DNA from: Rhodoferax sp.
GTDB lineage: Bacteria > Pseudomonadota > Gammaproteobacteria > Burkholderiales > Burkholderiaceae_C
Length of the DNA: 64,000 nucleotides
Assembly (NCBI RefSeq): GCF_013297935.1
Contig: NZ_JAAFIX010000001.1
Span: 310,001-374,000 of the forward strand
Reading direction: 5' to 3'
In this document: positions 5,232-20,470 of the stretch, in pieces
Numbering within the stretch: position 1 is the stretch's first letter
Layout: each line of letters begins with the position of its first letter
Translations under genes and position numbers: made by a program
The notes under the pieces: generated by a model
The model's input: the letters and a program-made list of their open reading frames with translations, nothing else
What the model was told of the DNA's origin: nothing
The model's database searches: none

Positions 5232-5475
5232 GTAGACCCCGCATGCCGCGTCGAGGAATCACCTCCACCAAACCCTCTTTGGCCAAACGAATCAGAGCCT
5301 CACGCACAGGCGTACGGCTCATACCTAGCTGCAGTGCGATTTCTTGCTCTAGCGCCTGAAAACCAGGTGCCCACACGTTGTCTAGGATTCGACGACGCAG
5401 CCCTTGATACGCGGCATCGACCATATTGACCGGGTCTTCTTTGGCTTGTAAGTCTTGAGACATAGATGCTTTCAA
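5215..5475 (-). pseudogene. GntR regulator reduced to its winged-helix domain
   Basis: Codons 1-79 are identical to the intact regulator at 16763-17461, covering the complete GntR winged helix (SRTPVREALIRLAKEGLVEV). After RRGMR the frame runs into aldolase DNA, adds GLPDNTD and stops. The whole FCD ligand/dimer domain is gone. The start is TTG 5475 or ATG 5463, and the TTG overlaps the SMP-30 stop as in the intact copy. It may be a dead remnant or an expressed HTH-only peptide. The junction (5229-5237) has a short shared CAGGTAG, consistent with a microhomology deletion. Confidence 0.75.
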
Positions 5476-6209
5476 ACAGAACCGGGATAGTTCCAGTGGG
5501 TCGGTGCAACACCCTGTACCGGCATGGCGATTTTCAAAATTGACTGGCCCAGCAAGCAGCCGAGGTAGGCCTCGCGCAATTGCGGACCGGCAAATGCAAT
5601 GCTGGAAATGTTCTTAAGGTGTCGGCTTTTGACGCCGTCCAGATGGGGGCGGTCCATCGTGCTGCTTTGGTAGGCAGCCTCCACCCATGCCAAGTGGTCT
5701 GGGTCCACATCCTGAATGTGCACCGTCTGGCGTCCGTCTGGGGTCACATGTATCAGACTGTTGCTCACAATACTGACGACCCACACGCCGCCCTCAACGT
5801 CAAGCGCGAGTCCATCGGGAAACACGCCTGGACCAAACTCCGCGACAACTTGCTTAGTACCCAGACTACCGTTCTCCGCAATAGCGAATCGAGAGAGGCG
5901 CCGTGTAAATGTCTCATTCACATAGAGCCACTCGCCGGCGGCATCGACCACACACTCATTGGTGTAGCCCAAACCATCCGCGACGATGCGGGCGCCTTTG
6001 GCATCCATCATCACCACGAACCCGTCATCGCAGGTCTTGCGGTAGCCCAGGGACCGCGGCGTCAGCCGCGTACTCACCGTGATCCAAAAACGCCCTTGCC
6101 GGTCTTCGACTACATAGTTGGTCGGCGGCAAGTCGACGCCGTCCACGGTCTGCAATACAGGGCGGGTTTGACCATCTCGGTCCAACCGGTACACGCCACC
6201 GCGCTCAGC
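5238..6209. repeat. 972-bp block identical to 17224-18195
   Basis: All reading frames compared across this block give identical products in the two copies. The block covers the GntR HTH region and most of the SMP-30 gene, at a constant offset of 11,986. On the left, identity breaks at the GntR/aldolase junction. On the right it breaks sharply at 6210 (18196), after which the SMP-30 N-terminal codons differ at many third positions. This is the signature of recent duplication or gene conversion. Confidence 0.8.
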
Positions 6210-6476
6210 ACCTAGGTGGGCAAGTAGAAATGCCCCATCTCGCAAGAGCGCAATACCGTTGGGTTTGAGCACTTCACCATCAACGGGACTACCTACGTAC
6301 AGCTGTTGTTGGCCGTTGGGCCCAATATGGGCTACGCCACCACGCCAGTCCGCCGTGAAGATGTCGCCACTGGCCGTAGCTAATACGCACTCTGGCCGCA
6401 CTAAGTCAGTACCTATCCAATCTTCGGGCCGAATCGGCTGCATTGGTTTCGTAGTACTAGCGGCAGGAATTTTCAT
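5472..6476 (-). CDS. SMP-30/gluconolactonase family protein, copy 1
   Basis: This is a 334-residue six-bladed beta-propeller lactonase, predicted to hydrolyse a sugar lactone to the free acid. Family features are the early metal-ligand Glu in DLVRPECVLAT, the NGIALLRDGAF and PTNYVVEDRQGRFWITVS blocks, YTNECVVDAAGEWLYVNET with the metal-binding Asn, and PDGLALDVEGGVWV with the catalytic/metal Asp. No signal peptide is seen, so it is cytoplasmic. The C-terminal three quarters are identical to the copy at 17458, while the first about 88 codons differ. A double operator lies 25 bp upstream of the ATG. Downstream it overlaps the truncated GntR gene by 4 bp. The gene itself appears intact and is probably expressed. 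Confidence 0.85.
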   Translation of the reverse strand: MKIPAASTTKPMQPIRPEDWIGTDLVRPECVLATASGDIFTADWRGGVAHIGPNGQQQLYVGSPVDGEVLKPNGIALLRDGAFLLAHLGAERGGVYRLDRDGQTRPVLQTVDGVDLPPTNYVVEDRQGRFWITVSTRLTPRSLGYRKTCDDGFVVMMDAKGARIVADGLGYTNECVVDAAGEWLYVNETFTRRLSRFAIAENGSLGTKQVVAEFGPGVFPDGLALDVEGGVWVVSIVSNSLIHVTPDGRQTVHIQDVDPDHLAWVEAAYQSSTMDRPHLDGVKSRHLKNISSIAFAGPQLREAYLGCLLGQSILKIAMPVQGVAPTHWNYPGSV

Positions 6477-6500: not shown

Positions 6501-6528
6501 TTAATGTATTTGTTAACGTGTACGTTAA
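6501..6528. promoter_or_regulatory. Double GntR-type operator before SMP-30 copy 1
   Basis: Two overlapping 16-mers share a TTAA: TTAATGTATTTGTTAA (6501-6516) and TTAACGTGTACGTTAA (6513-6528). The arrangement and the 25-bp distance to the start codon match the site before the other SMP-30 gene. Perfect 17-bp outer arms (6488-6504 and 6525-6541) extend the dyad. Confidence 0.7.
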
Positions 6529-6626
6529 ATGAAATTGCCTTATTGGGGTTTACCCTTTTTGGGGTTCTGAGCCCGCCAGGCTTGCAAACCCTGTTCTTGA
6601 TTTTGATAGCAGGGGGCTTTTCCATA

Positions 6627-6665: not shown

Positions 6666-7136
6666 ATGACTAGCGCTGCGCGCACCCAAGCTACTTCGGT
6701 AGACCTGCAGGCCCTGCATTCCGGGGTGTGGCGCGCCCATACGTTGGCGGATGCTACGCAGGCGGTTCACGCCACGGGGGAGGCGCTGCTGGACACCCAT
6801 TTGCCCGGCGGCGGCTGGCCGGTGGGGGCACCGCTGCCACCGTTAGTACCGGCTTTGCATACACAGGGTTTGGCAGTGCAGCGGGTGCAGGCCCCAGATG
6901 CAGCCCAATGCATATGGTCTGCTGACCATGCTCTGCGGTGTGCCGAAATAGATGTGCTGCTGTGGATGGGCTCAGAGCAGCGCGCCCATGGTACGCGCGC
7001 CGGCACCCGATACGACGCATTGCGTCTGAACCAACGGCAGCGGTTGCAGATGGCGGCGGTTGAGCACCAGACGTTGTTGTTTGCGTTTGGAGTGAGTCAA
7101 CCGCTAACAGCTAACAGACATAAAAGGCGCCTTTAA
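6666..7136 (+). pseudogene. imuA: Decayed imuA (SOS translesion-synthesis accessory protein)
   Basis: The 156-residue frame keeps the ImuA N-terminus (LHSGVWRAHTLADA, then ALLDTHLPGGGWPVGA) and then jumps to a late ImuA segment (PPLVPALHTQGL, DAAQCIWSADHALRC, RLQMAAVEHQTLLFAFGV). Roughly 40 residues of the RecA-like core normally lie between these, so an internal in-frame deletion is inferred. The last about 15 residues (SQPLTANRHKRRL) are unlike the family and run into the convergent DctP gene. ImuA normally works with ImuB and DnaE2 in SOS mutagenesis; neither gene is present here. A LexA box sits directly upstream. The gene lies between the two copies of the catabolic locus, suggesting the island inserted into an imuA-imuB-dnaE2 cassette. 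Confidence 0.65.
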
Positions 7137-8146
7137 GGACGCATCGCTTTGGCGTCCGCAAGGATCGCATCGACATCTGCCCCGTACACGGTGCGCGCAC
7201 GGGGATATACCCCTTCCATCGCTTGGCGAAATTGTTGACGATTAGGCACCACGACCTTTGCGCCGTCAGCTTTCATTGCGGCAATATTGGCTTCGTCGGC
7301 GTCACGGGTCAGCGTGCGGGACAGATTGCTGGCTTCTTGCCCCGCTTTCATAAACCGCTGCCGGTCGGCTGCGCTAAGCCGTTGCCACAGTGTCTCAGAC
7401 ATGACAAAGGGTATCGGGCTGTAGACATGCTGGGTTAGCACGATATTGGGGGCAACCTCATAGAAGCGCATGGAGCGAATGGTATCGACAGGATTTTCTT
7501 GGCCATCAACTGCACCAGACTGAATGGCGCTATACACATTCGTAATCGGCAACACCACCGGCTCGTAACCTATGGACTCCATGATCCACTTGATCATGTC
7601 GTTAGGGAAGACGCGTATTCTCTTGCCTTTTGCGTCTGCAGGTTGGTTTAGCGGCGTCTTAGTTGTGAAACTCCGAAAGCCGGCCTCCCAAGTTGCCAAA
7701 TAGCGAATGCCTTTTGCGGGAAGCTTGTCAAACTGCTTGGCCAACCATGTTGAGTTGTCATAAAGTCTCCATCCATGCTCATAGCTATCTACGAGGTAAG
7801 GCAAAGCCGTAAGATTCAACTCGTTCACCAAGCCTGCAAAGCTGCCGGTAGCACTGGTAGTAAAGTCCAATCGGCCTTCTGCCACTGCTTTCACATTTTG
7901 AGGGTCGTTGCCTAGTTGGCCCGAGTGGAACACCAGAATGCGGTAGCGGCCCCCGGTGTATTCTTCGACTTTCTGAGCGAAGGCCTCTGCAGCAGCATGG
8001 CGGGAGCCAGAGGGTGTGTCAGTGTGATTGAGTTTGAGTACAGTGACGGCGGGTTGAGCTTGAACCACTGGCGCGGCACTGGCCAGCACCGCTACCAATA
8101 GACGCGAAACCCAAAAAGAAACACTAATAAAATTACGATTGTGCAT
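7133..8146 (-). CDS. dctP: TRAP transporter substrate-binding protein DctP, second copy type
   Basis: This 337-residue periplasmic solute receptor has an N-terminal signal peptide (hydrophobic VSRLLVAVLASAAPVV, cleavage near VQA-QP). DctP hallmarks are LKLNHTDTPSGSRH at the mature N-terminus, the ligand-carboxylate Arg region GKRIRVFPND, and AIQSGAVDGQENPVDT. Family receptors bind organic acids or acid sugars through that Arg. It is the last gene of the minus-strand island series, 8 bp after the ABC-type binding protein, and has no membrane partners of its own. It may share the DctQM pair at 11.7-13.5 kb with the other DctP, from which it clearly differs. Its stop codon overlaps the decayed imuA. 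Confidence 0.88.
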   Translation of the reverse strand: MHNRNFISVSFWVSRLLVAVLASAAPVVQAQPAVTVLKLNHTDTPSGSRHAAAEAFAQKVEEYTGGRYRILVFHSGQLGNDPQNVKAVAEGRLDFTTSATGSFAGLVNELNLTALPYLVDSYEHGWRLYDNSTWLAKQFDKLPAKGIRYLATWEAGFRSFTTKTPLNQPADAKGKRIRVFPNDMIKWIMESIGYEPVVLPITNVYSAIQSGAVDGQENPVDTIRSMRFYEVAPNIVLTQHVYSPIPFVMSETLWQRLSAADRQRFMKAGQEASNLSRTLTRDADEANIAAMKADGAKVVVPNRQQFRQAMEGVYPRARTVYGADVDAILADAKAMRP

Positions 8147-8154
8147 AGTGGCTC

Positions 8155-9294
8155 TTACTGGCGAATGCGGCCATCGTCACCGACGATCGACATGTCAACA
8201 TAACGAGATCCTTCATGGTTGGCTGCGGAGAAGTCAATCCAGAATCCACCCAAGTCGTAGCGCCGCATGCTTTCCAAGGTTTTGGCAAGTGCTTTGGCGT
8301 CGACATCTCGGCCAGCTCGGCGTAGACCTTCGGCCAAAACTCGCGTAGCCACATAGCCTTCTAGACTGGCAAAGTTCATTCGCTCTAAATCAATACCCAA
8401 AGCAACAATCTGCTTCCTAAAGTCTTGCGCCACTGGCGTCTTGATGCGATAGGGGCTTGGCATTCCTTGGGCTATCGCTGTGCCTGAAGCAGCTGCGCCC
8501 AGTTGTTTAACCAACTGCTCAGCATTCACTGTAGAAGTGGCAAAAACCAATGACTTCAATCCCTTTCCACGAATGCCGGAAATGACCGCTCCAGCCACTG
8601 GCGTGTTGGCCACTAACAAAACCGCCTGAGGGTCAGCGGCGACGATCTGAGTAACAGCGGGCGCCACATCGACATTGCTAGACGGCAGCGCGACAACAGT
8701 CGCCGGTTTGAGTTGTCGCGCCGCGAGCATCTTTTGGGCTTGGTCCCACGCTTCGCGACCAAAGGCCTCATCTTCGTAGACAACTGCAATGCGCGTCGTG
8801 GCCATGGTTTGCATCTGGTCCAGTATGCGCGACACTTCGTCTTTGTAACCAGCCCGGATGTGAAACAACGCGGGGGTGATGCGGAACTCCGCCATGCCCG
8901 AGGTCACGCCAATGACAGGTACCCCCTTGCTTTCCAATAATTTGCTTTGTAGCACTGCGCTGATGTTCTCTGCTCCCCACATACCCAAGAAAGCCACAGG
9001 CTCATACTTTTGCAATATTTCCCGGGCGTGGCTAACGGTATCTTTGCTGCGGTACCCATCATCGCGCGATACCAAGCGCAGGCGGTTGCCATTCACTCCA
9101 CCTGTCATATTGATTTCGTTGAGCGCCACCGTGATACCCAAGTTGAAGTCGCGGCCTGCTTGAGCCAACGCTCCTCCAAACGGGGCCACCTGGGCGACCC
9201 AAACATCTTTCGCCAACGCAGGAGCATTCCCGAAACCCGCCCCCAACAGAAAAATCAAAACACTCCATGGACGTAACCACCTGCGAGGCGACAT
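8155..9294 (-). CDS. ABC-type branched-chain-amino-acid-like periplasmic binding protein (orphan)
   Basis: This is a 379-residue type I periplasmic binding protein of the LivJ/LivK (Peripla_BP_6) family. The signal peptide runs to about residue 29 (LIFLLGAGFGNAPALA-KD). The mature part has the family opening VAPFGGALAQAGRDFNLGITVALNEIN and NRLRLVSRDDGYRSKDTVSHAREIL. The usual LivHMGF permease and ATPase genes are absent from the window, so it must borrow a transporter or act as a sensor, for example feeding the chemoreceptor at 18.5-20 kb. It lies 30 bp downstream of the aldolase. A scar of a second copy is at 4544-4622. Confidence 0.85.
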   Translation of the reverse strand: MSPRRWLRPWSVLIFLLGAGFGNAPALAKDVWVAQVAPFGGALAQAGRDFNLGITVALNEINMTGGVNGNRLRLVSRDDGYRSKDTVSHAREILQKYEPVAFLGMWGAENISAVLQSKLLESKGVPVIGVTSGMAEFRITPALFHIRAGYKDEVSRILDQMQTMATTRIAVVYEDEAFGREAWDQAQKMLAARQLKPATVVALPSSNVDVAPAVTQIVAADPQAVLLVANTPVAGAVISGIRGKGLKSLVFATSTVNAEQLVKQLGAAASGTAIAQGMPSPYRIKTPVAQDFRKQIVALGIDLERMNFASLEGYVATRVLAEGLRRAGRDVDAKALAKTLESMRRYDLGGFWIDFSAANHEGSRYVDMSIVGDDGRIRQ

Positions 9295-9324: not shown

Positions 9325-10041
9325 TTATTGCCAGCGAATATTGAAGCGATCTTCCAGCGTCTGGACCTGCTCCGGTGGCAGTGGTGCAGTTCGCCCGTGG
9401 GACCAGCAATACAGCTTGGCGGTTTCCTCCAGCTCCTCCAGCACCGCCATGGCCTGCGCTGGCGAGTGGTGCCATACGTTGGGGCCAAGCCGTTCTAACA
9501 TGACGGCGCGCAGCCCGATTCCGGCTTTGGCATACGCCTCGATGCACTGCCCGACCGTGCCGGCCACCTCAGGAGAGCCCGGAAGCCCATAAGGAATCAA
9601 AGGCACGCGCCCCACCTTCATCACAAAGTACGGCGTGAGCGCGGGGAGCAACTCTTGCCACTGAAACTTGCCACAGCTCAAGCCCACATCGCCCATGGAA
9701 AGAGAAACGCTGTAGCTGCTGTGCGTGTGAATCACGCAGCGAACCTGTGCGTCGACGACAGAGGCAGACGCATAAATTTTTCGATGCAACACAATGGTTT
9801 TGCTGGGAACATCGCCGGCCAAATACTCCCCCTGCGCGTCGAGCAGCGACAAGCGTTCGGGCCTTAAGAAACCCAAGCAGGCGTCGGTCGGTGTAATCAG
9901 ATAGCCACCCCCTTGCTCTACCGGCAGTCGCACACTGATATTGCCAGCTGTGGCGTGCACCAAACCGCGGTCGAACATACTTTTTCCAACACGGCATACT
10001 TCCTCGCGGATCGCATCGAGGCTATCCAACCAGTGGCTCAT
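9325..10041 (-). CDS. otnC: Class II aldolase/adducin family protein, OtnC-like
   Basis: This 238-residue protein aligns along its length with 3-oxo-tetronate 4-phosphate decarboxylases: HATAGNISVRL, LITPTDACLGFL, VIHTHSSYSVSLS with the first two zinc His, LTPYFVMKVGRVPLIPY, and the C-terminal EELEETAKLY. Two expected functional residues are changed. The catalytic Glu of the family (as in PTKE..LH, equivalent to FucA Glu73) is Thr in PSKTIVLH. The third zinc His (LANHGP) is Leu in LERLGPN. Both changes also occur in the truncated second copy, so they are not sequencing errors. It overlaps the kinase stop by 4 bp, indicating translational coupling. The substrate is probably a kinase-produced acid-sugar phosphate, but the chemistry is uncertain. 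Confidence 0.75.
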   Translation of the reverse strand: MSHWLDSLDAIREEVCRVGKSMFDRGLVHATAGNISVRLPVEQGGGYLITPTDACLGFLRPERLSLLDAQGEYLAGDVPSKTIVLHRKIYASASVVDAQVRCVIHTHSSYSVSLSMGDVGLSCGKFQWQELLPALTPYFVMKVGRVPLIPYGLPGSPEVAGTVGQCIEAYAKAGIGLRAVMLERLGPNVWHHSPAQAMAVLEELEETAKLYCWSHGRTAPLPPEQVQTLEDRFNIRWQ

Positions 10042-11342
10042 TGCAGCACTCCAAAACCGGCACTAAAAATATCCACGGCACCAAAATTTCCAGACTTCAA
10101 AAGTAAGTGCAGAGCGGGAAGATCACCTTCGGCAGGCACATGGCACCATGGCACCCCGGGCGCCACCGCCGGGCCGACCTGCAGCGTGTGAATCTGCAGT
10201 GCCTGAACACAAGCGCCCGAGGTTTCGCCACCTGCCACCAACAACTGACGCACTCCCAGGCGCACCAAGCCGCGCGCAATCTGGGCTAGTGCCGACTCCA
10301 ACATGCTTCCCAAATGCAGCGCACCCGAAGCGGACTGCGCGGTTTGTACTTGCTCCGGGCCTGCCGTCGAGTAAATCAACAGGGGTTGGCTCCCCACAAC
10401 CGTGGCAGCCCACTGCAAAGCCTGTTCAACTACCGGTTCTCCGGCGAACAATCGCGAAGGATCTATCTGGTACGCCGGGAGTCCTTGCTCCACAAAGTGG
10501 GCAACCTGCGCATTCGTCGCGACCGAGCAACTACCAGACACGACGGCCTGCGCCCCGCTAGGAGCGGGCAACCGAGCGTTCTGAGCCGCACGCAGACCGT
10601 GATTCTGCGGTATTCCAATTGCAAGCCCGGAGCCCGCAGTGACCAACGGCAAATCTCTAACGGCACACCCCAGATTCATCAGGTCTTGGTTGTCCAGCGC
10701 ATCAACCACCACGACCTCGATACCTTGCGCCTGCAAAGTCTGCAAGTTCGTTCGAATGGCATCTGGCCCCTGGCGGACCACGCCATAGTCAAGCAAGCCC
10801 ACTTTGCGGCTGCATTGCGCCTGAAGCACACGTTGCAAATTGGCATCCCGCATGGGAGTTAGCGGATGGTCTCGCATCCCAGACTCACTCAGCAGTACAT
10901 CGCCTACAAAGAGGTGTCCTTTGAACACTGTGCGCCCATTGGCAGGAAACGCGGGAGTGGCAATCGTCAACGAAGCACCACAGGCCTCCATCAGCGCATC
11001 GATCACCGGGCCAATATTGCCGCGCTGGCTGCCCGTATACACGCTATCGAAGGTAGAGCAGTATTTGAAATAGATTTGCTCTGCCCCATGCGCCTTCAGC
11101 CACGCCAAAGCCCGTAGACTTTGCTCCACAGCTTCTTGTGGTGGCAAGGTCCTTGACTTGAGGGCGATGACTACGGCATCGGCATTCACTACTGTCTCGT
11201 CCGCCGGAATGCCCATGGTTTGCACCACCCGCATGCCAGCCTCGGTCAGGTTGCTGGCCAAATCGGTGGCACCGGTAAAGTCATCGGCAATGCACCCTAA
11301 GCGCAATTTATTTCCGGGCTCTGAAAAACCAGACATCGCCAT
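10038..11342 (-). CDS. otnK: Four-carbon acid sugar kinase family protein (OtnK-like)
   Basis: This 434-residue protein has the two-domain DUF1537 kinase fold. The N-terminal substrate domain starts LGCIADDFTGATDLASNLTE and contains KYCSTFDSVYTGSQRGNIG and TPAFPANGRTVFKGHLFV. The C-terminal nucleotide-binding domain contains VVSGSCSVATNAQ and LLVAGGETSGACVQAL, the glycine-rich ATP-binding motifs. Known members phosphorylate 3-oxo-tetronate, D-threonate or D-erythronate. It is coupled to the downstream aldolase (ATGA overlap) and follows the ABM protein by 2 bp. The usual OtnI isomerase and OtnD dehydrogenase are not in the window, so the exact substrate is not fixed by context. Confidence 0.85.
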   Translation of the reverse strand: MAMSGFSEPGNKLRLGCIADDFTGATDLASNLTEAGMRVVQTMGIPADETVVNADAVVIALKSRTLPPQEAVEQSLRALAWLKAHGAEQIYFKYCSTFDSVYTGSQRGNIGPVIDALMEACGASLTIATPAFPANGRTVFKGHLFVGDVLLSESGMRDHPLTPMRDANLQRVLQAQCSRKVGLLDYGVVRQGPDAIRTNLQTLQAQGIEVVVVDALDNQDLMNLGCAVRDLPLVTAGSGLAIGIPQNHGLRAAQNARLPAPSGAQAVVSGSCSVATNAQVAHFVEQGLPAYQIDPSRLFAGEPVVEQALQWAATVVGSQPLLIYSTAGPEQVQTAQSASGALHLGSMLESALAQIARGLVRLGVRQLLVAGGETSGACVQALQIHTLQVGPAVAPGVPWCHVPAEGDLPALHLLLKSGNFGAVDIFSAGFGVLQ

Positions 11343-11344
11343 AG

Positions 11345-11656
11345 TTAATTTTTTTCCAACGATAGGGCGGGCGACAGGCGGTTGTAAACCTTAACTTCCT
11401 TGTTCTTCACCCAAGCCTGTGTCATTGTGTTGAACTCCACAAAATGCGGCGTAGCAAGATGGTGTTGAAAGTCTTGCGCGCTGTCATAGGCCTCGTACAG
11501 AAACACGGCACGCTCCTCAGCAGAGGATTCACATACGTCGAACTGCTTGCACCCGGGCTCTTCAGACAAGGACGAAGCAGCATTGGCGAGCATGGCGGAC
11601 ATGAACTCCGCATAGTGCGCAGGCGTAATTTCAAAGGTAACCGTAACGATGTACAT
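11345..11656 (-). CDS. ABM-domain (putative quinol monooxygenase/YgiN-like) protein
   Basis: This 103-residue dimeric alpha+beta barrel protein of the antibiotic-biosynthesis-monooxygenase family has the typical opening YIVTVTFEITPAHYAEF, the EPGCKQFDVCESS segment, FLYEAYDSAQDFQHHLATPHF and a final strand. Similar small proteins sit in sugar-acid clusters and may be epimerases/mutarotases or stress-related oxidoreductases; no activity can be assigned from sequence. It lies 3 bp after the TRAP large permease and 2 bp before the kinase, so it is clearly co-transcribed. Confidence 0.8.
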   Translation of the reverse strand: MYIVTVTFEITPAHYAEFMSAMLANAASSLSEEPGCKQFDVCESSAEERAVFLYEAYDSAQDFQHHLATPHFVEFNTMTQAWVKNKEVKVYNRLSPALSLEKN

Positions 11657-11659
11657 GCG

Positions 11660-12952
11660 TTATCCCCACTTTGCAATCATGCTGGGCAACCAGCTTGTAA
11701 GGCCTGGAACATAGGTCACCAGCAGTACGATGGTGAAGGTCGCAGCCATCATGACCCACAGGTGCTTGGTGATTTCGCCAATCGTCGCACTGGCTAACTT
11801 GGCAGCAACAAACAGCGTCCCCCCAACGGGCGGCGTGTATAGAGCAATCGCCAAATTGGCCGTCATGATGACGCCCATATGGACCAGGTCCATCTGGAAG
11901 GCAGCCGCCAAGGGTAAGAACAAAGGCGCAGCCATTAGCAACGCGGGGAGCGGCTCGATGAAGATGCCCAAGAGCACGAGCGCCACATTCAGCATGATCA
12001 AGAATACCCACTTCACATGCGCGACCGAGCCCACCCAGTCTGCCAATTGCATGGCAACTCCTTCGGCAGTAATGATCCACGCGAGTGCTCCTGTTGCTCC
12101 AATAACCAGCATCACTGTCGCACTGGTAATGAAGGCTTTTAACAGCAATTCGGGAATTTGCCGGTAAGACATGTCCTTGTACAAAAACATCGATACCAGC
12201 AAGCCATACACCACCGCTACAGCGGCAGCCTCCGTCGGTGTGAAGTAGCCCGACCAAATGCCACCGATGATGAACACGGGCATGAGCAGCGCTGGGCCTG
12301 CATCCAAACCAGCCACCCATATTTTTCGCAGCGAAGCGGGCTTCCCGCCCATGTCGACACCGGTGGAACGGCCGTGCCACATACATACCGCCACCAAGGC
12401 GGCGGCAGACAACAGCGCGGGCAGCAAGCCGGCCGACGATAGCGTACGCATAGACACACCAGAAACGAAGGCGTACACCAAGAACGGGATGGAAAGCGGC
12501 ATCAGCAACGCTAACGTACCGGATACAGCGACCAAAGCGGCGGCGAATCCCCTGCTGTAGCCACGTGCCAGCATGGCCGGAATGACCAAGGAGCCAATGG
12601 CAGCCGTATCGGCGATAGCCGACCCTGATACACCGCCGAACAGCAGGCAGGACATCACCGTAACCACACCCAAGCCGCCAGGCAGCCAGCCAAACAACAC
12701 ATTAGCGAACTCGACAATACGCTTGCCAACGCCGCCGTGGGCCAGCAGTTCACCCGTAAAGACAAACAAGGGAACTGCAATCAAGATAAAGGGCTCGACA
12801 CCACCGATAAACGAGAGGAACACGCTCTCAAGAGGGTAGGACATGCCATAGATAGTGACCACACCGACGGTGGTTGCCAATAGTGCCACCATCAGCGGAA
12901 TACCCGCCAACGCCAGCAAGAAGAAGGAACCAAAAATTACAAGCGACAACAT
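11660..12952 (-). CDS. dctM: TRAP transporter large permease DctM
   Basis: This inner-membrane protein of 430 residues has about 12 hydrophobic segments and family motifs such as GGVEPFILIAVPLFVFTGELL, GGVSGSAIADTAAIGS and GIFIEPLPALLM. It catalyses sodium-coupled uptake of the solute delivered by DctP. The ATG at 12952 is chosen because GAGGAAT precedes it. A longer frame to 13093 would overlap dctQ and add 47 non-hydrophobic residues with no family match. It lies 14 bp downstream of dctQ. Confidence 0.9.
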   Translation of the reverse strand: MLSLVIFGSFFLLALAGIPLMVALLATTVGVVTIYGMSYPLESVFLSFIGGVEPFILIAVPLFVFTGELLAHGGVGKRIVEFANVLFGWLPGGLGVVTVMSCLLFGGVSGSAIADTAAIGSLVIPAMLARGYSRGFAAALVAVSGTLALLMPLSIPFLVYAFVSGVSMRTLSSAGLLPALLSAAALVAVCMWHGRSTGVDMGGKPASLRKIWVAGLDAGPALLMPVFIIGGIWSGYFTPTEAAAVAVVYGLLVSMFLYKDMSYRQIPELLLKAFITSATVMLVIGATGALAWIITAEGVAMQLADWVGSVAHVKWVFLIMLNVALVLLGIFIEPLPALLMAAPLFLPLAAAFQMDLVHMGVIMTANLAIALYTPPVGGTLFVAAKLASATIGEITKHLWVMMAATFTIVLLVTYVPGLTSWLPSMIAKWG

Positions 12953-12966
12953 GGGATATTCCTCAA

Positions 12967-13500
12967 TCAATCGGCTGGATAACGTTGCTCGCGAGGTACC
13001 CCGCGCAGAATGAGCACTAGATCCCACAACAGAAACACTAGAATGCAAGCGGAGCCAACGGGAAGCGGCATGTACTGCCAGGCCATGGGCCATTCCAAGG
13101 TGGTCAACACCGTGCCCCAGCTCTCGTCAACAATGCGCAGGCCGTAATACAGTATGACCACCATGATCAGCGCGCAAAACGCTTGCACCGCAGCATCTGC
13201 CCATCGGCGTTTCGGGGGGCTGAGTTTGTCCAAAAACTCATTGATGCTCATGTGAGCGCCCCGCTGGGCGGCGGCAGCACCCCCCAGAAACGTCACCCAC
13301 ACCATCAAGAACTCACCCAACTCTGTGAGCCAGGCGAGATCTCGGCTCAGTGCGTGCAACACGACATTGATGAAAATCAATACCGCCAGCGCACCACCGA
13401 TGCCAATGACGCAGGTATCGATACACCGACTCAGCAGGCGAATCGCCATGGGAGCTGGTACCAACTGTGGTTTTACTTCTTCTATTTCAGCAAAGGACAT
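12967..13500 (-). CDS. dctQ: TRAP transporter small permease DctQ
   Basis: This 177-residue inner-membrane protein has four predicted hydrophobic helices. The central segment FLMVWVTFLGGAAAAQRGAHMSINEFLDKL is diagnostic of DctQ. It forms the transport complex with DctM and receives ligand from the DctP encoded 33 bp upstream. The N-terminal about 25 residues are polar (cytoplasmic). Confidence 0.88.
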   Translation of the reverse strand: MSFAEIEEVKPQLVPAPMAIRLLSRCIDTCVIGIGGALAVLIFINVVLHALSRDLAWLTELGEFLMVWVTFLGGAAAAQRGAHMSINEFLDKLSPPKRRWADAAVQAFCALIMVVILYYGLRIVDESWGTVLTTLEWPMAWQYMPLPVGSACILVFLLWDLVLILRGVPREQRYPAD

Positions 13501-13533
13501 GACAATCCACCTCTGTGCTTCGGTTGAAACGAT

Positions 13534-14532
13534 TTACTTCACGGCCTTGCGCACAGCGGCGGCGTCCGCCAGTACAGCGTCGACATCAGCACCGTACTTA
13601 TCACGTGCTTTGGCATACACCGGCTCCACAGCTTTGCGGAAGGCTTCGGTATTGGGCTTGCGGTTAACCTTGGCGCCCTTGGCTTCCATCTCGGCTAACA
13701 ACTTTTCGTCGTTGTCGCGAATCGCGTTGCGCTGGAACGGTGCTACCTCTTTAGCGGCCTTGGCAATCGCAATTTGGTCCTCGGGAGAAAGCTTTTGCCA
13801 TGTCTTCTCAGAGATTGCCAGAGGTGTCGGGCTGTAGACGTGATTGGTTAGGGTAACGTGGGGTGCTACTTCGTAAAACTTATTCGATGCAATGGTGTCA
13901 ATCGGATTTTCTTGCCCCGAGACAGCACCCTGTTGAATGGCAAGGTAGACCTCTGGTAGAGGCATGATCTGAATGCCGAACCCCATGGCCTCCAGTTGCC
14001 AGCGCATCATCTCGTTAGGAAAGGTACGCAGCTTCTTGCCCTTGGCGTCTTCCGGCGAGTTCAGCGGGTCACGGGTCGTCATGTTGCGAAAACCTGCTTC
14101 CCAAGTTGCGAGAAAGCGGAAACCTTTCTCGGGAGCCTTGGCAAACTGGGTTTGCAGCCACTTAGACTCGTCGTAAAACTTCCAGCCCTGCGTGTAACTG
14201 TCAATGATGAAAGGCATCATCATCAGATTCAGAGTTGGTATTTGTCCAGCGTACGAACCGGTTGCCGACACGGTGAAGTCAATACCACCAAGCGTGAGTT
14301 GTTCAATGTTTTTTGGGTCATTGCCAAGCTGACTGCAGCAAAACACGTTAACTTGGTAGCGACCTTGGGTGTAGTCCTTAACCTTTTTTGCAAATACTAC
14401 GGCGGCTGCATGACGGGCGCCAAATTGTTGATCGGTGTGACTGAACTTCAGCACGGTCTGGGACTGGGCTGCGCTGGCAAGCGTCGCTGCTGCCAGCGCC
14501 ACTGCGTAGCGAATGACGGTAAATTTCTTCAT
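13534..14532 (-). CDS. dctP: TRAP transporter substrate-binding protein DctP
   Basis: This 332-residue periplasmic receptor has a signal peptide MKKFTVIRYAVALAAATLASA cleaved near AQS-QT. Hallmarks are LKFSHTDQQFGARHAAAVVFAKKV, the Arg-containing GKKLRTFPNEMM and AIQQGAVSGQENPIDT. The ATG at 14532 has a strong AAGGAGACATC ribosome site 7-8 bp upstream. The frame continues to 14703 but that extension overlaps the preceding oxidoreductase gene. Mature Cys residues in VFCCSQLGND replace the usual aliphatic residues there, which is unusual for a periplasmic DctP. Confidence 0.9.
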   Translation of the reverse strand: MKKFTVIRYAVALAAATLASAAQSQTVLKFSHTDQQFGARHAAAVVFAKKVKDYTQGRYQVNVFCCSQLGNDPKNIEQLTLGGIDFTVSATGSYAGQIPTLNLMMMPFIIDSYTQGWKFYDESKWLQTQFAKAPEKGFRFLATWEAGFRNMTTRDPLNSPEDAKGKKLRTFPNEMMRWQLEAMGFGIQIMPLPEVYLAIQQGAVSGQENPIDTIASNKFYEVAPHVTLTNHVYSPTPLAISEKTWQKLSPEDQIAIAKAAKEVAPFQRNAIRDNDEKLLAEMEAKGAKVNRKPNTEAFRKAVEPVYAKARDKYGADVDAVLADAAAVRKAVK

Positions 14533-14578
14533 GATGATGTCTCCTTCTTGGTTGGTGAATGCCGAAGCAAGCTTCTTG

Positions 14579-15649
14579 TTACGAGAACTGAAACGAATGC
14601 AAATCAACCTTGCATCCTTGGGAATTCGATTCGTAGATGGCTTCCTGTACACGCAGGTTTTGCAGGTAATCGTGGGCGGTGTTCTCCAACGCGCACTCAC
14701 CACTTAGGCCGTCTAGTACATGGCGTTGCAACGCGCCACAGGCACCTGCGCCAAAGCTGTGGTCTTGGGGGGCTGCGTCATAAACATGCTCCACTTCGGG
14801 GCCGTGGTGGGGCTTCCAATGCAGAGCGCCAAAACCATCCAAACGCATCACGCCGGCGCTGCCCTCGAGCCACATTTCTCCAAACGTGCGACGGGGGTTA
14901 TTCGCGCTGTGGTCATTCAGACGATTGCCGTCAAAAAGGCCGACGCTTCGGTTGTCGAATCCGAACACGACAACTCCTGCGTCCTCACCCTGTATCACTG
15001 GATTTACACGGCGCAACTGCGCGTAAACGCTGGACACCTCCCCCATAAGGTACCTAAACGTGTCAACATAATGCACACCTGTCTCTGCCATCAACAAACG
15101 AGGCATGGTCTGGAAATAGGGTTGGCGGTCCATATACGCGTTCGGGCCTTGACCATCTCCTGGGCGTAGGCGGAAACTGATGCCGTGCAAGTCGCCAAAG
15201 TACCCCACGTCTATCAGTCGCTTTAACTCCCGATGCCACGGCATGAAGCGGAAGTTCTCATGCACGATCAGTGGGGTTCCATGCTGTGCGGCGGCGGCTG
15301 CAAAGCACTGGGCCTGCCGCACATCTGATCCGAACGGTTTCTGGCAAACAATCGGAATCCCCAGGGGGATCAATTGCTCTAGCAACTGCTCCTGGGCACC
15401 CGAGGGCGTTACCAAGTCAATTAGGTCCGGCTTGCCTTGCGCCAGCAGCGCGTCGACCGAATCGACCACTGCTTCTACGCCAAACTTGTTCGCCAGCACT
15501 TGGGCCCGCGCCAGATTCAAATCACACAAAGCACCTACCGTCACATTGGGGATGCGACTCCATCCGTCGAGGTGAAACTGGCTGAAAAATCCAGCACCTA
15601 CCATGGCCACGCGCCAAGGTTTAGAGGTGGGTTGTGCGAACCAGGTCAT
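14579..15649 (-). CDS. Gfo/Idh/MocA family oxidoreductase
   Basis: This 356-residue NAD(P)-dependent dehydrogenase is likely to act on a sugar, sugar acid or inositol-like polyol. The Rossmann domain has VAMVGAGFFSQFHLDGW, the catalytic Lys lies in QKPFGSDV (EKP motif with Gln in the first position), and the C-terminal domain has MAETGVHYVDTFRYLMG with the proton-relay His/Asp. No signal peptide is present. It starts 2 bp after the dehydrogenase gene and precedes dctP by 46 bp. In the pathway it could oxidise the imported sugar to the lactone that SMP-30 hydrolyses (inference). Confidence 0.85.
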   Translation of the reverse strand: MTWFAQPTSKPWRVAMVGAGFFSQFHLDGWSRIPNVTVGALCDLNLARAQVLANKFGVEAVVDSVDALLAQGKPDLIDLVTPSGAQEQLLEQLIPLGIPIVCQKPFGSDVRQAQCFAAAAAQHGTPLIVHENFRFMPWHRELKRLIDVGYFGDLHGISFRLRPGDGQGPNAYMDRQPYFQTMPRLLMAETGVHYVDTFRYLMGEVSSVYAQLRRVNPVIQGEDAGVVVFGFDNRSVGLFDGNRLNDHSANNPRRTFGEMWLEGSAGVMRLDGFGALHWKPHHGPEVEHVYDAAPQDHSFGAGACGALQRHVLDGLSGECALENTAHDYLQNLRVQEAIYESNSQGCKVDLHSFQFS

Positions 15650-15651
15650 GC

Positions 15652-16743
15652 TTACGCCTTGGACAAAGTCTGGACGATGGCGCGGGTCACAGCCACCGTG
15701 CCGTCTTGCCCACCAACCTCAAATGGACGCACGCTGCCCGCAGCAAAGACTTCTTGAACAGCTGCGTCAATCAGAGTGGCCGCATCTTGCAAGCGGGTGT
15801 CTCCAGTGCGGTCTGCCAGCCACTCCAACATCATGGCGGCGGACAGCACCATGGCAGTGGGGTTAGCTTTGCCTTGGCCTGCAATATCGGGTGCTGTACC
15901 GTGAGCTGGCTGAAACAGTGCATGTTTGTCGCCAATGTCGCCGGAGGGCGCCATGCCCATGCCGCCCACCAGGGCCGCAATTAAATCGGACAAGATGTCG
16001 CCGAACATGTTTTCTGTCACCAACACGTCATAGGTCCATGGCTTCATGACCAAGTTGAGTGCCATCGCATCAACGTAGGCGCTGTCAGTCTTCACCTCCG
16101 GGTGGTTCTGCGCAGTCGATTCAAAGATGCTGCGCCATAGAGCCATTGATGCAAACACATTGGCCTTGTCCACATTGGTCACCCGGCCAGCACGTCCGCG
16201 TTGGGCGGCGCGGCGCTCTGCCAGCTTGAAGGCGAACTCACAAATCCGCTTGGTGCCCTTGTGCGTGATTTGCATGGTGTCGTAAACACCGTCTTCGCGC
16301 GTCTCACCCCGGCCGCGTGCATAGAACAGGCCCTCCGTACTCTCACGCACCAACACCAAGTCGATCTCAGACGCTTTAGGGCTCGACAGGGGCGTAGGCA
16401 AGCCTTTGAAGGTACGGATGGGGCGCACACCAGCGTACAAATCAAAGTGAAACCGCAGGTCCAACTGCGGAATGATTTCGGTGCCGTCGGCACCTCGCAC
16501 ATGGGGCAGACCCATAGCGCCGAACAGAATCGCGTCAGCCGCGTCACAGACTTTGAGCGTGCTCTCAGGCAATGCTACGCCGCTATCCAAATAATGCTGC
16601 GCCCCGGCCTTCTGGTAGTCCAGTACCAAACGAATGCCTGTGCGTGCCTGCACTGCTTGCAGAACCTCTTGGGTCGCCTGCATGACTTCCGCACCGATGC
16701 CGTCACCCGGCAGTACGGCAATGTGGTATTGGCTCTTTGTCAT
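15652..16743 (-). CDS. Isopropylmalate/isocitrate/tartrate dehydrogenase family enzyme
   Basis: This 363-residue NAD-dependent beta-decarboxylating dehydrogenase is recognised by LPGDGIGAEVM at the N-terminus, substrate Arg residues around LDLRFHFDLYAGVRPIR, VRESTEGLFYARG, the metal-Asp signature TENMFGDILSDLIA and the NAD-binding HGTAPDIAGQGKANP. Its position in a sugar-acid cluster, not with leuCD, argues against leucine synthesis and for oxidation of a 2-hydroxy acid such as a tartrate- or malate-like intermediate. The ATG at 16743 is chosen over 16833 because the extra 30 residues would overlap the GntR stop. It lies 19 bp after gntR. Confidence 0.82.
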   Translation of the reverse strand: MTKSQYHIAVLPGDGIGAEVMQATQEVLQAVQARTGIRLVLDYQKAGAQHYLDSGVALPESTLKVCDAADAILFGAMGLPHVRGADGTEIIPQLDLRFHFDLYAGVRPIRTFKGLPTPLSSPKASEIDLVLVRESTEGLFYARGRGETREDGVYDTMQITHKGTKRICEFAFKLAERRAAQRGRAGRVTNVDKANVFASMALWRSIFESTAQNHPEVKTDSAYVDAMALNLVMKPWTYDVLVTENMFGDILSDLIAALVGGMGMAPSGDIGDKHALFQPAHGTAPDIAGQGKANPTAMVLSAAMMLEWLADRTGDTRLQDAATLIDAAVQEVFAAGSVRPFEVGGQDGTVAVTRAIVQTLSKA

Positions 16744-16762
16744 AGTGGTAAACCTGTTTTCC

Positions 16763-17461
16763 TTACATGTGTTGAAGACGGAATGTTTCAAAAATCTTGA
16801 GCAACTCGGTGCTGGCGCGCTGGCGGTGAACACGGTTTATCTCGCTGGCGCGGGCTGCATCGCCTTTGCGCAGGGCATTCACCAAGGCGGTGTGCTCCTG
16901 GGTGGAATGAATCGGCTTGGGACGCAGGCGCAGGGTGAACATGCGGGCGCGATGAGCGCGATCCCAGTAACTCATGACCGTGTCGGTCAGCATGCGATTG
17001 CCGGAGAGGCGAACCAGGCGTTCGTGGAACAACTCGTCAGCAACAGCCCACGCATCGAGGTCCCCAGCCTTGAGTGCGGCTTCCATCGAAGCGGTAGCCT
17101 CCTCAAGCGGAGCGAGCGAAGCGGCACTGGGCTTACTGCCAGCGAGTAATTCACACGCCATGCATTCCAGTGCTGTCAAAATTTCGTAGATTTCTTTCAT
17201 GTCTGTCGGCGAAACAGGTAGCACCCGCATGCCGCGTCGAGGAATCACCTCCACCAAACCCTCTTTGGCCAAACGAATCAGAGCCTCACGCACAGGCGTA
17301 CGGCTCATACCTAGCTGCAGTGCGATTTCTTGCTCTAGCGCCTGAAAACCAGGTGCCCACACGTTGTCTAGGATTCGACGACGCAGCCCTTGATACGCGG
17401 CATCGACCATATTGACCGGGTCTTCTTTGGCTTGTAAGTCTTGAGACATAGATGCTTTCAA
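16763..17461 (-). CDS. GntR-family (FadR/FCD) transcriptional regulator
   Basis: This 232-residue regulator has a winged helix at residues about 15-80 (SRTPVREALIRLAKEGLVEVIPRRGMR) and a C-terminal FCD all-helical ligand domain. The FCD domain shows the usual metal/ligand His set (ADELFHERLV, TQEHTALVNAL, EINRVHRQR). The start is TTG 17461, overlapping the SMP-30 stop, or ATG 17449. It is the probable binder of the TTAA...TTAA operators upstream of SMP-30 and of the chemoreceptor, with autoregulation through read-through from SMP-30. FCD regulators of sugar-acid clusters usually release DNA when the substrate or an intermediate binds. A copy lacking the FCD domain lies at 5215-5475. Confidence 0.88.
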   Translation of the reverse strand: MKASMSQDLQAKEDPVNMVDAAYQGLRRRILDNVWAPGFQALEQEIALQLGMSRTPVREALIRLAKEGLVEVIPRRGMRVLPVSPTDMKEIYEILTALECMACELLAGSKPSAASLAPLEEATASMEAALKAGDLDAWAVADELFHERLVRLSGNRMLTDTVMSYWDRAHRARMFTLRLRPKPIHSTQEHTALVNALRKGDAARASEINRVHRQRASTELLKIFETFRLQHM

Positions 17462-18195
17462 ACAGAACCGGGATAGTTCCAGTGGGTCGGTGCAACACCC
17501 TGTACCGGCATGGCGATTTTCAAAATTGACTGGCCCAGCAAGCAGCCGAGGTAGGCCTCGCGCAATTGCGGACCGGCAAATGCAATGCTGGAAATGTTCT
17601 TAAGGTGTCGGCTTTTGACGCCGTCCAGATGGGGGCGGTCCATCGTGCTGCTTTGGTAGGCAGCCTCCACCCATGCCAAGTGGTCTGGGTCCACATCCTG
17701 AATGTGCACCGTCTGGCGTCCGTCTGGGGTCACATGTATCAGACTGTTGCTCACAATACTGACGACCCACACGCCGCCCTCAACGTCAAGCGCGAGTCCA
17801 TCGGGAAACACGCCTGGACCAAACTCCGCGACAACTTGCTTAGTACCCAGACTACCGTTCTCCGCAATAGCGAATCGAGAGAGGCGCCGTGTAAATGTCT
17901 CATTCACATAGAGCCACTCGCCGGCGGCATCGACCACACACTCATTGGTGTAGCCCAAACCATCCGCGACGATGCGGGCGCCTTTGGCATCCATCATCAC
18001 CACGAACCCGTCATCGCAGGTCTTGCGGTAGCCCAGGGACCGCGGCGTCAGCCGCGTACTCACCGTGATCCAAAAACGCCCTTGCCGGTCTTCGACTACA
18101 TAGTTGGTCGGCGGCAAGTCGACGCCGTCCACGGTCTGCAATACAGGGCGGGTTTGACCATCTCGGTCCAACCGGTACACGCCACCGCGCTCAGC
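17224..18195. repeat. 972-bp block identical to 5238-6209
   Basis: This is the partner of the duplicated block in the collapsed locus. It covers the first part of gntR and the last three quarters of the SMP-30 gene. Confidence 0.8.
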
Positions 18196-18462
18196 GCCCA
18201 GGTGGGCCAACAAGAAAGCGCCATCTTTCAGCAGGGCAATGCCATTGGGCTTCAGCGCCTCTCCATCGACAGGGCTGCCGGTGTAGAGACGTTGCGCACC
18301 GTCCGCTCCGATGTGGGCCACCCCACCCCGCCAGTCTGCAGTGAAGATGTCGCCATGGGCTGTTGCCAATACACACTCCGGCCGCACAAGGTCAGTCCCG
18401 ATCCAGTCGGTGGGCTGGATCTGAGGCACGAGGTTGGCACGACGGTCAGCGGAGGTGTTCAT
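17458..18462 (-). CDS. SMP-30/gluconolactonase family protein, copy 2
   Basis: This is a 334-residue beta-propeller lactonase with the same motifs as the copy at 5472. From about residue 89 the two proteins are identical; before that they differ at scattered positions (MNTSADRRANLVPQIQPTDW here). The ATG at 18462 gives equal length and puts the double operator 25 bp upstream, exactly as in the other copy. A TTG at 18486 would lie at the operator edge and is rejected. It is the first enzyme gene of the intact operon and overlaps gntR. Confidence 0.87.
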   Translation of the reverse strand: MNTSADRRANLVPQIQPTDWIGTDLVRPECVLATAHGDIFTADWRGGVAHIGADGAQRLYTGSPVDGEALKPNGIALLKDGAFLLAHLGAERGGVYRLDRDGQTRPVLQTVDGVDLPPTNYVVEDRQGRFWITVSTRLTPRSLGYRKTCDDGFVVMMDAKGARIVADGLGYTNECVVDAAGEWLYVNETFTRRLSRFAIAENGSLGTKQVVAEFGPGVFPDGLALDVEGGVWVVSIVSNSLIHVTPDGRQTVHIQDVDPDHLAWVEAAYQSSTMDRPHLDGVKSRHLKNISSIAFAGPQLREAYLGCLLGQSILKIAMPVQGVAPTHWNYPGSV

Positions 18463-18486: not shown

Positions 18487-18514
18487 TTAACGTATGCATT
18501 AATGTATACGTTAA
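18487..18514. promoter_or_regulatory. Double GntR-type operator before SMP-30 copy 2
   Basis: Two overlapping 16-mers share a TTAA: TTAACGTATGCATTAA (18487-18502) and TTAATGTATACGTTAA (18499-18514). Position and layout are the same as at 6501-6528, although the flanking DNA differs, which argues for functional conservation. Confidence 0.75.
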
Positions 18515-18540
18515 TTTCAACAACTAGCCTCGGGATTACC

Positions 18541-20079
18541 CTAGGAAACTCCCAACTTAAACACCGCAACCACCTGCACCAAATCCTGCGCCTGGCTCTT
18601 CAAGCTGCTCGCCGCAGCCGCCATCTCTTCCACCAGCGCCGCGTTTTGCTGGGTCGCTTGGTCCATCTGGCTGACTGCTTCTCCCACTTGGGAAACTCCT
18701 GCACTTTGTTCGTTGCTGGCGGCTGAGATTTCTCCCATGATGTCGGTCACCCGTTTGATGCTGGTGACGACTTCGGTCATGGTGGAGCCCGCTTTGTCTA
18801 CCAGGGCGGTTCCTTGTTCTACCCGCTCTACGCTGGTGCCAATGAGGGTTTTGATTTCTTTGGCAGCTTCGGCAGAGCGTCCTGCCAAGGAGCGGACTTC
18901 GGAGGCGACTACTGCAAAGCCTCTTCCTTGTTCTCCGGCTCGGGCGGCTTCTACGGCGGCGTTCAGTGCCAGGATGTTGGTTTGGAAGGCGATGCCGTCG
19001 ATGACGCTGATGATGTCGGCGATCTTTCGGCTGGATTCGTTGATGCCTTTCATGGTTTCAACGACTTGGCCGACGACTTCTCCGCCTTGGATGGCTACCT
19101 TGGAGGCATTCATGGCCAGTTGGTTGGCTTGGCGGGCGGAGTCGGCGTTTTGTTTGACGGTGGAGCCGAGTTCTTCCATGGAAGCTGCGGTTTCTTCCAG
19201 GGCGCTGGCTTGGCTTTCGGTGCGGGCACTCAAGTCGTGGTTGCCTTGGGCGATTTCGGCGCTGGCGGTGGCGACGGATTCGGAGCCGGTGCGGACCCGG
19301 GACACCACCTCGGCAAGGTTCTTTTGCATTCGATGCAAGGCTGCCAGCATGTCGGCCATTTCATTGCGCCCTTGTACTGCGATGTCTTGGGTAAGGTCAC
19401 CTCCAGAGATAGCCAGCGAAATGTGAACCGCCCTGCGCAGTGGGATCGTGATGGCCCGCACCAAGGAGCGGGCGAGCAATGCGCCGAGCAACACCGTCGC
19501 ACCAGCGACTCCGGCAAAAATCCACAGCCCCGTGTGAAACGATGCTTGCGCGTCCGAGTACTGCGTTTTGGCGCCTAGCAGTTCTTGATCTATCTGGAGA
19601 TTCACCGCTTCCCCAATGGGGGCAATGCTCTCATCCAGAGACTGCAACAGCAAAGACACCTTGAACATATCTGCTTGCGCCAAGGCAGCCACCAACTCCG
19701 TCACCGGCTTTTCTGACTTCGCCAACATCCCATCAATAGCCGCCACTCCCGCGGACTCCGCACGTAGCGCAGTTTTGTAGGCCGTCCACTCTTGTTGAGC
19801 GCTCAGCACACTGCTTTTTATGCGTTCCGCCGCTTGTGCAGGATCAACCAATCCGTTGGACACTTTGTTGGCCAAGTTCAATACCCCCTTGGTGTAGCCA
19901 TCGTTCAGCGACTTGAGTTGCTTCACAGGCAACAGATGCTGGGCATAAATCACCTCCACCGACCGGTTCGATCGCGTGGCTAGTGCTGCGCCCAAAAAAG
20001 CAACCAGCAAAACGGTAAGTGACAGGAAGCCAAAGCCCAGGGCAAGCCGTGTCGATATTTTGAGTGAATTGAATTGCAT
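18541..20079 (-). CDS. Methyl-accepting chemotaxis protein linked to the island
   Basis: This is a 512-residue transmembrane chemoreceptor. TM1 is about residues 12-34, followed by a periplasmic four-helix-bundle-type sensor to about 182, TM2 about 184-206, a HAMP domain, and a cytoplasmic coiled-coil with the invariant tip [33 protein letters not shown] split by the CheA/CheW-binding hairpin. There is no C-terminal NWETF-like CheR tether. The ATG at 20079 follows GGAGACACC; a longer frame to 20178 would run through the operator. A 28-bp palindrome 48 bp upstream carries the same operator core as the SMP-30 genes, so this receptor probably senses the island's substrate, directly or through one of its binding proteins. 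Confidence 0.88.
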
Positions 20080-20126
20080 GGTGTCTCCAAGACTGCTGAT
20101 ATGAATTTCTGGGGTTCCATTGAGTC

Positions 20127-20154
20127 TCGATATTAACGTATACGTTAATATCGA
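20127..20154. promoter_or_regulatory. Perfect 28-bp palindromic operator before the chemoreceptor
   Basis: The core TTAACGTATACGTTAA (20133-20148) is extended by TCGATA/TATCGA arms, giving a perfect 28-bp palindrome centred between 20140 and 20141. The core is the symmetric form of the motif found before both SMP-30 genes. Confidence 0.75.
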
Positions 20155-20296: not shown

Positions 20297-20470
20297 ACCT
20301 ACGGCACGCACACAATGCGCCGTACCAGAGCATCCTTGATCTACCGCCGTACCAAGAACCCTCAGGCAATGCAATTCCTCCTGGGGCACCTCAATCTGGA
20401 AAGCACGGTGCGCAAACCCTGCATCGAAGTGGAAGACGCCCTAGAGCTATCTCAACAGACTGAAATTTGA
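20297..20470 (+). pseudogene. C-terminal remnant of a tyrosine recombinase/integrase
   Basis: The frame TYGTHTMRRTRASLIYRRT, then QFLLGHLNLESTVR and IEVEDALELSQQTEI ends in TGA. This is the familiar C-terminus of a phage-type integrase (H-x-x-R as THTMRRT, then LLGH). The nucleophilic Tyr expected after STVR (STVRYLGIEV in relatives) is replaced by Lys-Pro-Cys (STVRKPCIEV), and the upstream part is out of frame or missing. It cannot be active. Its place at the island's right edge suggests integrase-mediated acquisition. Confidence 0.7.

Follow-up and report, generated by a model that had tools for sequence, protein, structure and literature searches.

Atu1419 of Agrobacterium fabrum is a GntR/FCD regulator of the VanR group that binds the operator ATGTATACAT, a G of which is read by Arg45 of helix 3. 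The operator signature of GntR/FCD proteins is given as (N)yGT(N)xAC(N)y, and the metal site of Atu1419 consists of an Asn and three His, the roles of the residues being assigned in the same source (PMC7797058, in excerpt). The protein regulates a hydroxycinnamic acid region from palindromes 109-190 bp apart, with looping by a tetramer. In Escherichia coli NanR, several GntR-type dimers pack on adjacent sites of (GGTATA)3 operators (PMC8012715, in excerpt). With regard to chemotaxis, the genes for PcaY_PP and other Pseudomonas putida chemoreceptors are induced by a catabolised substrate, and a response to the receptor's own ligand is seen in many chemoreceptor genes; the mechanism of induction is left open in the portion of PMC6363813 consulted. 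Given that ligand-induced chemoreceptor genes have been described there, co-regulation of chemoreceptors with catabolic genes is known in kind, and it is the present instance, a chemoreceptor operator, that is new.

The locus described here would provide such an instance. A GntR/FCD repressor encoded in a catabolic gene cluster probably operates on one motif, through which it would control the catabolic operon, a second lactonase gene and a chemoreceptor gene, and from which it would be released by an inducer. In the open-licence literature, no listed title or abstract opening described this GntR-lactonase-chemoreceptor system, and no match to the letters of the motif was found.

The gene cluster and its GntR/FCD regulator

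The window, by which is meant the whole 64-kb stretch of DNA analysed, contains a run of minus-strand genes assigned by Pfam. It begins with an SMP-30/gluconolactonase-type lactonase as the first gene of the operon (positions 17458-18462) and continues with the GntR/FCD regulator P0001 (16763-17461), an enzyme of the isocitrate/isopropylmalate dehydrogenase family (15652-16833), a Gfo/Idh/MocA oxidoreductase (14579-15649), the DctP, DctQ and DctM components of a TRAP transporter (11660-14703) and an ABM-domain protein (11345-11656). These are followed by the 3-oxo-tetronate kinase OtnK (10038-11342), which scored 580 bits with NCBIfam model NF043035 against a curated cut-off of 350, and by an OtnC-like class II aldolase/decarboxylase (9325-10041), for which model NF043034 gave 200 bits against an OtnC cut-off of 250. 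Two extra solute-binding proteins, of the Peripla_BP_6 and DctP families, lie at the end of the operon (7133-9294). The OtnK score, the OtnC-like partner and the TRAP transporter resemble the OtnK/OtnC pathway of 3-oxo-tetronate catabolism, to which the cluster adds the isocitrate-family dehydrogenase, the SMP-30 lactonase and the Gfo/Idh enzyme. The substrate is likely to be a sugar acid with four carbon atoms, or else its lactone or precursor.

P0001 matched PF00392 with 60.2 bits (cut-off 27) and PF07729 with 95.2 bits (cut-off 24.3), and it aligned with the solved FCD regulators 3sxy and 3fms and with Atu1419. The helix stretch SRTPVREAL is the same in P0001 and Atu1419, and an Asp and three His were read by eye at the places of P0001 aligned with the metal sites of 3sxy/3fms and Atu1419. 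The sites found beside relatives of P0001 carry a YGTATACR core that fits the GntR/FCD operator signature. Likeness to Atu1419 comprises the SRTPVREAL winged helix, the FCD domain, a metal site of Asn or Asp with three His, and a palindrome with a YGTATACR core near a -10 box (PMC7797058, in excerpt). Agreement of the recognition helix and the core with those of a crystallised FCD regulator supports P0001 as the putative binder. Differences are the regulated region, the spacing of the palindromes (12 bp here) and the absence of any mention of a chemoreceptor in the excerpts of PMC7797058. NanR differs in that its operator is made of direct repeats, whereas the sites described below are overlapping palindromes with a common TTAA.

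A second SMP-30 gene (5472-6476, minus strand) is identical to the first copy in its 3' part and ∼70% identical in its 5' part. Behind it lie remnants (4656-5475, minus strand), recognised by Pfam and by comparison as a truncated GntR gene and an OtnC fragment, the latter ∼89% identical to its counterpart. The truncated GntR copy (5215-5475) ends after the winged-helix domain, with an open frame of 86 amino acids, and an inducer-blind DNA-binding fragment is conceivable. When compared in 30-bp blocks, positions ∼5240-6199 were identical to 17226-18185, after which identity dropped to ∼70%. This lactonase tract of ∼960 bp looks like the result of recent gene conversion.

Operator sites in the window and in the genome

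The window was scanned for the pattern TTAACGTATACGTTAA with up to three mismatches. Five matches were obtained (6501, 6513, 18487, 18499 and 20133), where shuffled sequences led to an expectation of 0.03. As the earlier note had proposed, the core before the chemoreceptor is part of a 28-bp palindrome without mismatch (20127-20154), which consists of two 14-bp arms with no further symmetry beyond and is located 53 nt 5' of the chemoreceptor ATG. The remaining matches form two overlapping pairs with an offset of 12 bp and a TTAA common to both members, one before each SMP-30 gene (18487-18514 and 6501-6528). Both the pairing and the shared TTAA had been described in that note; the distance to the ATG, put there at 25 bp, is 24 nt for both genes. 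Each pair as a whole is also palindromic over 28 bp, with one mismatched pair of positions at 18487-18514 and four at 6501-6528.

A weight matrix built solely from relatives, with the best sites of 29 loci as input, placed the window sites in its top five positions. Scores were 30.0 and 34.1 for the pair of the first lactonase, 33.3 for the chemoreceptor site and 19.4 and 23.0 for the weaker pair of the second lactonase, with 6.5 for the next best position. Given that unrelated palindromes picked genome-wide (L095-L099) also reach 22-26 with this matrix, some doubt attaches to the sites of the second lactonase by score alone; the chemoreceptor site is above this range. One of these palindromes, L095, was inspected more closely and sits between efflux-type and integrase-like genes, named by eye.

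In the own 3.6-Mb genome, TTAACGTATACGTTAA with at most one mismatch was found at three places, all at the cluster, and the reversed control at none, so that within its own genome the motif is not frequent at unrelated promoters. The looser pattern TTAAYGTRTRCRTTAA with at most two mismatches added a single place, C25:61892, and its reversed control gave three forward and five reverse matches. The palindrome at C25:61892 (L099, 9893-9908) has a matrix score of 26 and spans the codon at which a hypothetical gene is predicted to begin. Matrix scores did not exceed 9.2 at the other 24 of 25 chemoreceptor-type loci of the genome, defined by Pfam domain, or 0.2 at the eight other FCD-regulator loci. 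The stretches scored for these loci extended ∼1.5 kb past the matched domain, beyond which some promoters may lie; the motif scans cover the genome. A chance origin of the window sites was ruled out by the five matches against 0.03 expected, by their rarity in the genome and by the palindrome controls given below.

That the lactonase operators are alike merely through recent duplication, without selection, finds support in the identity of the two copies over about 5240-6199. The identical tract, however, stops inside the coding sequence; further upstream, the remaining coding part is ∼70% identical and the promoter flanks are less so. The operator pairs nevertheless agree at 22 of 28 positions, compared with 13 of 24 for the 24-nt leaders and 15 of 30 for the next 30 bp upstream, in agreement with the claim that the layout was kept despite diverged flanks, and the same 12-bp layout recurs in seven relatives. 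Because the operators have outlasted their flanks, simple duplication was dropped as the main account and has hardly any probability left to it. The promoter of the second lactonase is a paralogous copy in which the operators survived divergence of the flanks.

Occurrence of the site beside relatives of the regulator

In a first set of 28 loci encoding a relative of the GntR protein, the site was present in 24 with up to three mismatches. The loci spanned several bacterial classes, and the genera bearing the site include Hydrogenophaga, Polaromonas, Ramlibacter, Rhizobium, Marinomonas and Desulfofustis. A less redundant set of 36 loci combined 23 genomes of the family with 12 loci of the first set and the plasmid locus L114; of 34 plasmid records, two were examined and this one was counted. 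Excluded from the set were L007, L009, L010 and L014, whose contigs, to judge by their length, are also among the family loci (L009 without a site), L008 and L011, in which the site is present, and L020-L029, ten similar Rhizobium loci that all have sites. In this set the site was found in 28, 21 and 9 of the 36 loci with at most three, two and one mismatches, respectively. By comparison, 266 control palindromes with shuffled half-sites gave means of 0.7 (maximum 15), 0.07 (maximum 7) and 0.01 (maximum 2) in the same loci at these thresholds.

Eight loci lack a site with up to three mismatches. Three of them (L076, L078 and L091) are contigs broken off within SMP-30, and in two of the genomes behind them the 5' part of SMP-30 and the site were located on another contig (L155 and L090). 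For the other five the best matrix scores were 21-23 (L031, L032 and L092) and 14-16 (L017 and L094). Among the 23 other GntR-bearing genomes of the family, a site with up to three mismatches preceded SMP-30 or GntR in 20, two of these on a separate contig. The contig is cut in a further one (G186), another has a site with four mismatches before SMP-30 (G009) and the third has no site (G387).

Across the family, the GntR protein was found in 24 of 399 genomes and the site, with at most one mismatch, in 12 of 399. The site was present in 8 of the 24 genomes with the protein, the own genome included, compared with 4 of the 375 without it (Fisher p 2e-8). The reversed control at this threshold matched in 16 of 399 genomes, and with up to two mismatches 64 forward matches were obtained in 30 genomes against 42 for the control. 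Bare motif counts across genomes are uninformative, and weight attaches only to matches beside the cluster. For 4 of the 12 genomes, the matches (L037, L038, L043 and L044) had no cluster-protein match within the stretches fetched; L095 is a closer view of one of these four.

The gene behind the site is SMP-30 in most relatives. It is GntR itself in L030, L033, L080, L082, L083 and L114, and in L032 with four mismatches; in Rhizobium it is an ABC binding protein, as judged from the layout of L113. Given that the downstream gene varies, the site tracks the regulator and not one gene. The genome and its relatives, whose scanning the earlier note had proposed, thus yielded the site at three places in the own genome and at 24/28 and 28/36 relative loci. 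That the site follows the regulator's relatives across classes, before differing genes, strongly supports the binding by the GntR protein that the note had suggested, and the motif is, on this comparative evidence, strongly supported as the operator of the cluster's GntR/FCD regulator. The predicted operator, together with a likely class of ligand (four-carbon sugar acids), would apply to a GntR regulon that is found in several bacterial classes and of which the literature searches listed no description.

The paired layout is a real feature of these promoters. A partner site at exactly 12 bp and with a score above 12 was found in 9 of 35 promoters, comprising seven relatives and the two SMP-30 pairs of the window, whereas shuffled flanks gave a mean of 0.025 and a maximum of 1. 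In three promoters the partner site was at 18 bp. Dimers on such adjoining sites would resemble the packing of NanR. On plasmid pBB1 of Cupriavidus necator N-1 (L114, ∼11960-12000), 12-bp partner sites flank the operator on both sides before the GntR gene, and the whole forms an imperfect palindrome of ∼40 bp.

A second element resembling GGGTAAACCC lies 25 bp before both window pairs (18532-18541 and 6546-6555). In relatives, 13 of 31 promoters have, as a raw count, such an element with up to two mismatches, its distance upstream of the best site being 20-37 or 54 bp; L071, L072, L081 and L093 are among the relatives that have it. The pattern GGGTWWWYCC is barely enriched genome-wide (42 + 55 matches against 35 + 38 for the control); within the window 7 matches compare with 0.95. 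A scan with the sigma-70 consensus found no promoter for the chemoreceptor or for the other minus-strand genes in the two regions scanned. Both the second element, in relatives and at the window pairs, and the missing consensus promoter speak for a GntR protein that binds all sites as an activator or dual regulator rather than as a simple repressor. Against this, promoter-like boxes directly before the site were seen by eye, more clearly in L012 than in L015, L030 and L034, which is the position expected of a blocking repressor, and the GntR-family relatives Atu1419 and NanR repress (PMC7797058 and PMC8012715, in excerpt). Activation or dual regulation is accordingly regarded as improbable, and repression by the GntR protein is retained as the preferred reading.

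The chemoreceptor and its proposed regulation

The chemoreceptor gene (18541-20079, minus strand) encodes a methyl-accepting protein of 512 amino acids with a TarH/4HB-type sensor, a HAMP and an MCPsignal domain, each above its Pfam cut-off. A single-sequence prediction modelled the sensor as a four-helix bundle (pLDDT 81), with weak matches to Tsr, Tar, PcaY_PP and MCP2201 that all had E > 0.04 (PcaY_PP, 6s1a, E 0.34). The substrate of PcaY_PP is a different one, and its regulator presumably is too. The chemoreceptor operator has neither the 12-bp partner nor the GGGTWWWYCC element seen at the SMP-30 promoters. Upstream, a short open frame (20315-20470) resembles by eye the end of a tyrosine recombinase, with no Pfam match.

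Because a similar palindrome is used elsewhere, the chemoreceptor site might be read not by the GntR protein but by a MerR-family regulator, its likeness to the GntR sites being coincidental. The MerR-like protein P0005 is LiuR-like, LiuR being a regulator of branched-chain amino acid/acyl-CoA catabolism, and sites of the type TTGACGTNNACGTCAA are similar to that of the chemoreceptor, which fits the loose LiuR consensus TTNACGTNNACGTNAA. The own genome encodes a protein 65% identical to P0005 with a similar site before its gene, and in relatives such palindromes lie before genes whose translations were named by eye as acyl-CoA carboxylase-like (L176 and L177) and MerR-like (L180 and L182). LiuR-like sites, however, score 12-17 with the GntR matrix, whereas that of the chemoreceptor reaches 33. 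Variation of the sites at GntR loci extends to TTAATGTATACATTAA, without the ACGT half; these sites retain a central AT, which is absent from the LiuR-like site of the own genome. Moreover, the chemoreceptor adjoins the GntR cluster, and no branched-chain or acyl-CoA gene was found among the neighbouring open reading frames scanned. Given the worse fit to the matrix, the MerR-type protein was dropped as the main account; this assignment is very improbable, and the GntR protein is kept as the likely reader of the chemoreceptor site. The TTGACGTATACGTCAA-type palindromes of L176, L177 and L180-L182 would then belong to another regulon, whose site is easily confused with this one. The letters of the LiuR consensus are not given in the excerpts of PMC5045206 and PMC5343134.

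A chemoreceptor was beside the site in none of the relatives' loci examined. The same was true of 16 further match regions and of L149-L153 and L155, a subset of the two-mismatch matches in 30 genomes, in which no chemoreceptor match was found. In three Rhizobium loci a chemoreceptor lies ∼9-10 kb from the GntR gene, without the site. When up to 7 candidates per genome were scored, none of the other 398 family genomes gave a match to the sensor domain at E ≤ 1e-25. Among 60 further genomes of the genus, 9 contain twelve weaker relatives between them (24-47% identity); none of these relatives has the site, and their best motif match had 5 mismatches. These observations speak against the chemoreceptor being a conserved member of the regulon, and, since its operator is without counterpart in the relatives examined, conservation cannot vouch for the chemoreceptor site. 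Of 61 genomes of the genus, the own genome alone was found to encode the GntR protein, and the cluster was therefore probably acquired.

Sites that are rare, that accompany the regulator and that are paired before the lactonase genes make a GntR-repressed, substrate-induced chemoreceptor likely, as judged from the operator. We infer binding and repression by the GntR protein, the nature of the inducer and sensing by the receptor of the substrate or of substrate-loaded binding proteins. When substrate is lacking, GntR dimers would occupy the sites and block the SMP-30 - GntR - dehydrogenase - TRAP - OtnK/OtnC operon, the GntR gene itself included, and likewise the chemoreceptor gene and the second lactonase copy. 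The inducer, a sugar acid or lactone and probably a four-carbon acid or a precursor of one, would bind the metal-containing FCD domain and cause release of the DNA, and uptake, breakdown and the 4HB-type chemoreceptor would then be co-produced. The proposal supplies a concrete repressor-operator pair for chemoreceptor induction. The cell may produce its sensor solely when food is present, a wiring seen in no relative examined.

Taxis towards the substrate is plausible by analogy, chemoreceptors next to catabolic genes often sensing a substrate. The receptor could also be under GntR control and sense something else, such as the energy state or another acid, having merely been captured by the operator. 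Consistent with this, the own genome stands alone among 399 in its sensor domain at E ≤ 1e-25 and no weaker sensor relative in the genus has the site; conversely, many P. putida chemoeffectors raise the transcripts of their own receptors (PMC6363813, in excerpt). An unrelated ligand is considered possible without being the probable outcome. The common operator would also narrow the ligand search for this orphan chemoreceptor.

A more elaborate scenario, which is offered tentatively and is unlikely to hold in full, is that one lineage recruited the chemoreceptor into an acquired sugar-acid regulon through a single symmetrical GntR operator, with the substrate sensed through orphan solute-binding proteins and the catabolic operon governed by a graded, composite operator in which two palindromes overlap in a TTAA. 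Feeding would then induce the receptor together with the periplasmic proteins that carry its ligand, a positive loop by which general foragers become specialists. The solute-binding proteins encoded at 7133-9294, beside which no permease was found among the open reading frames scanned, are possible partners of the chemoreceptor. Pairs resembling these Peripla_BP_6 and DctP proteins were also observed in L008, L012 and L073.
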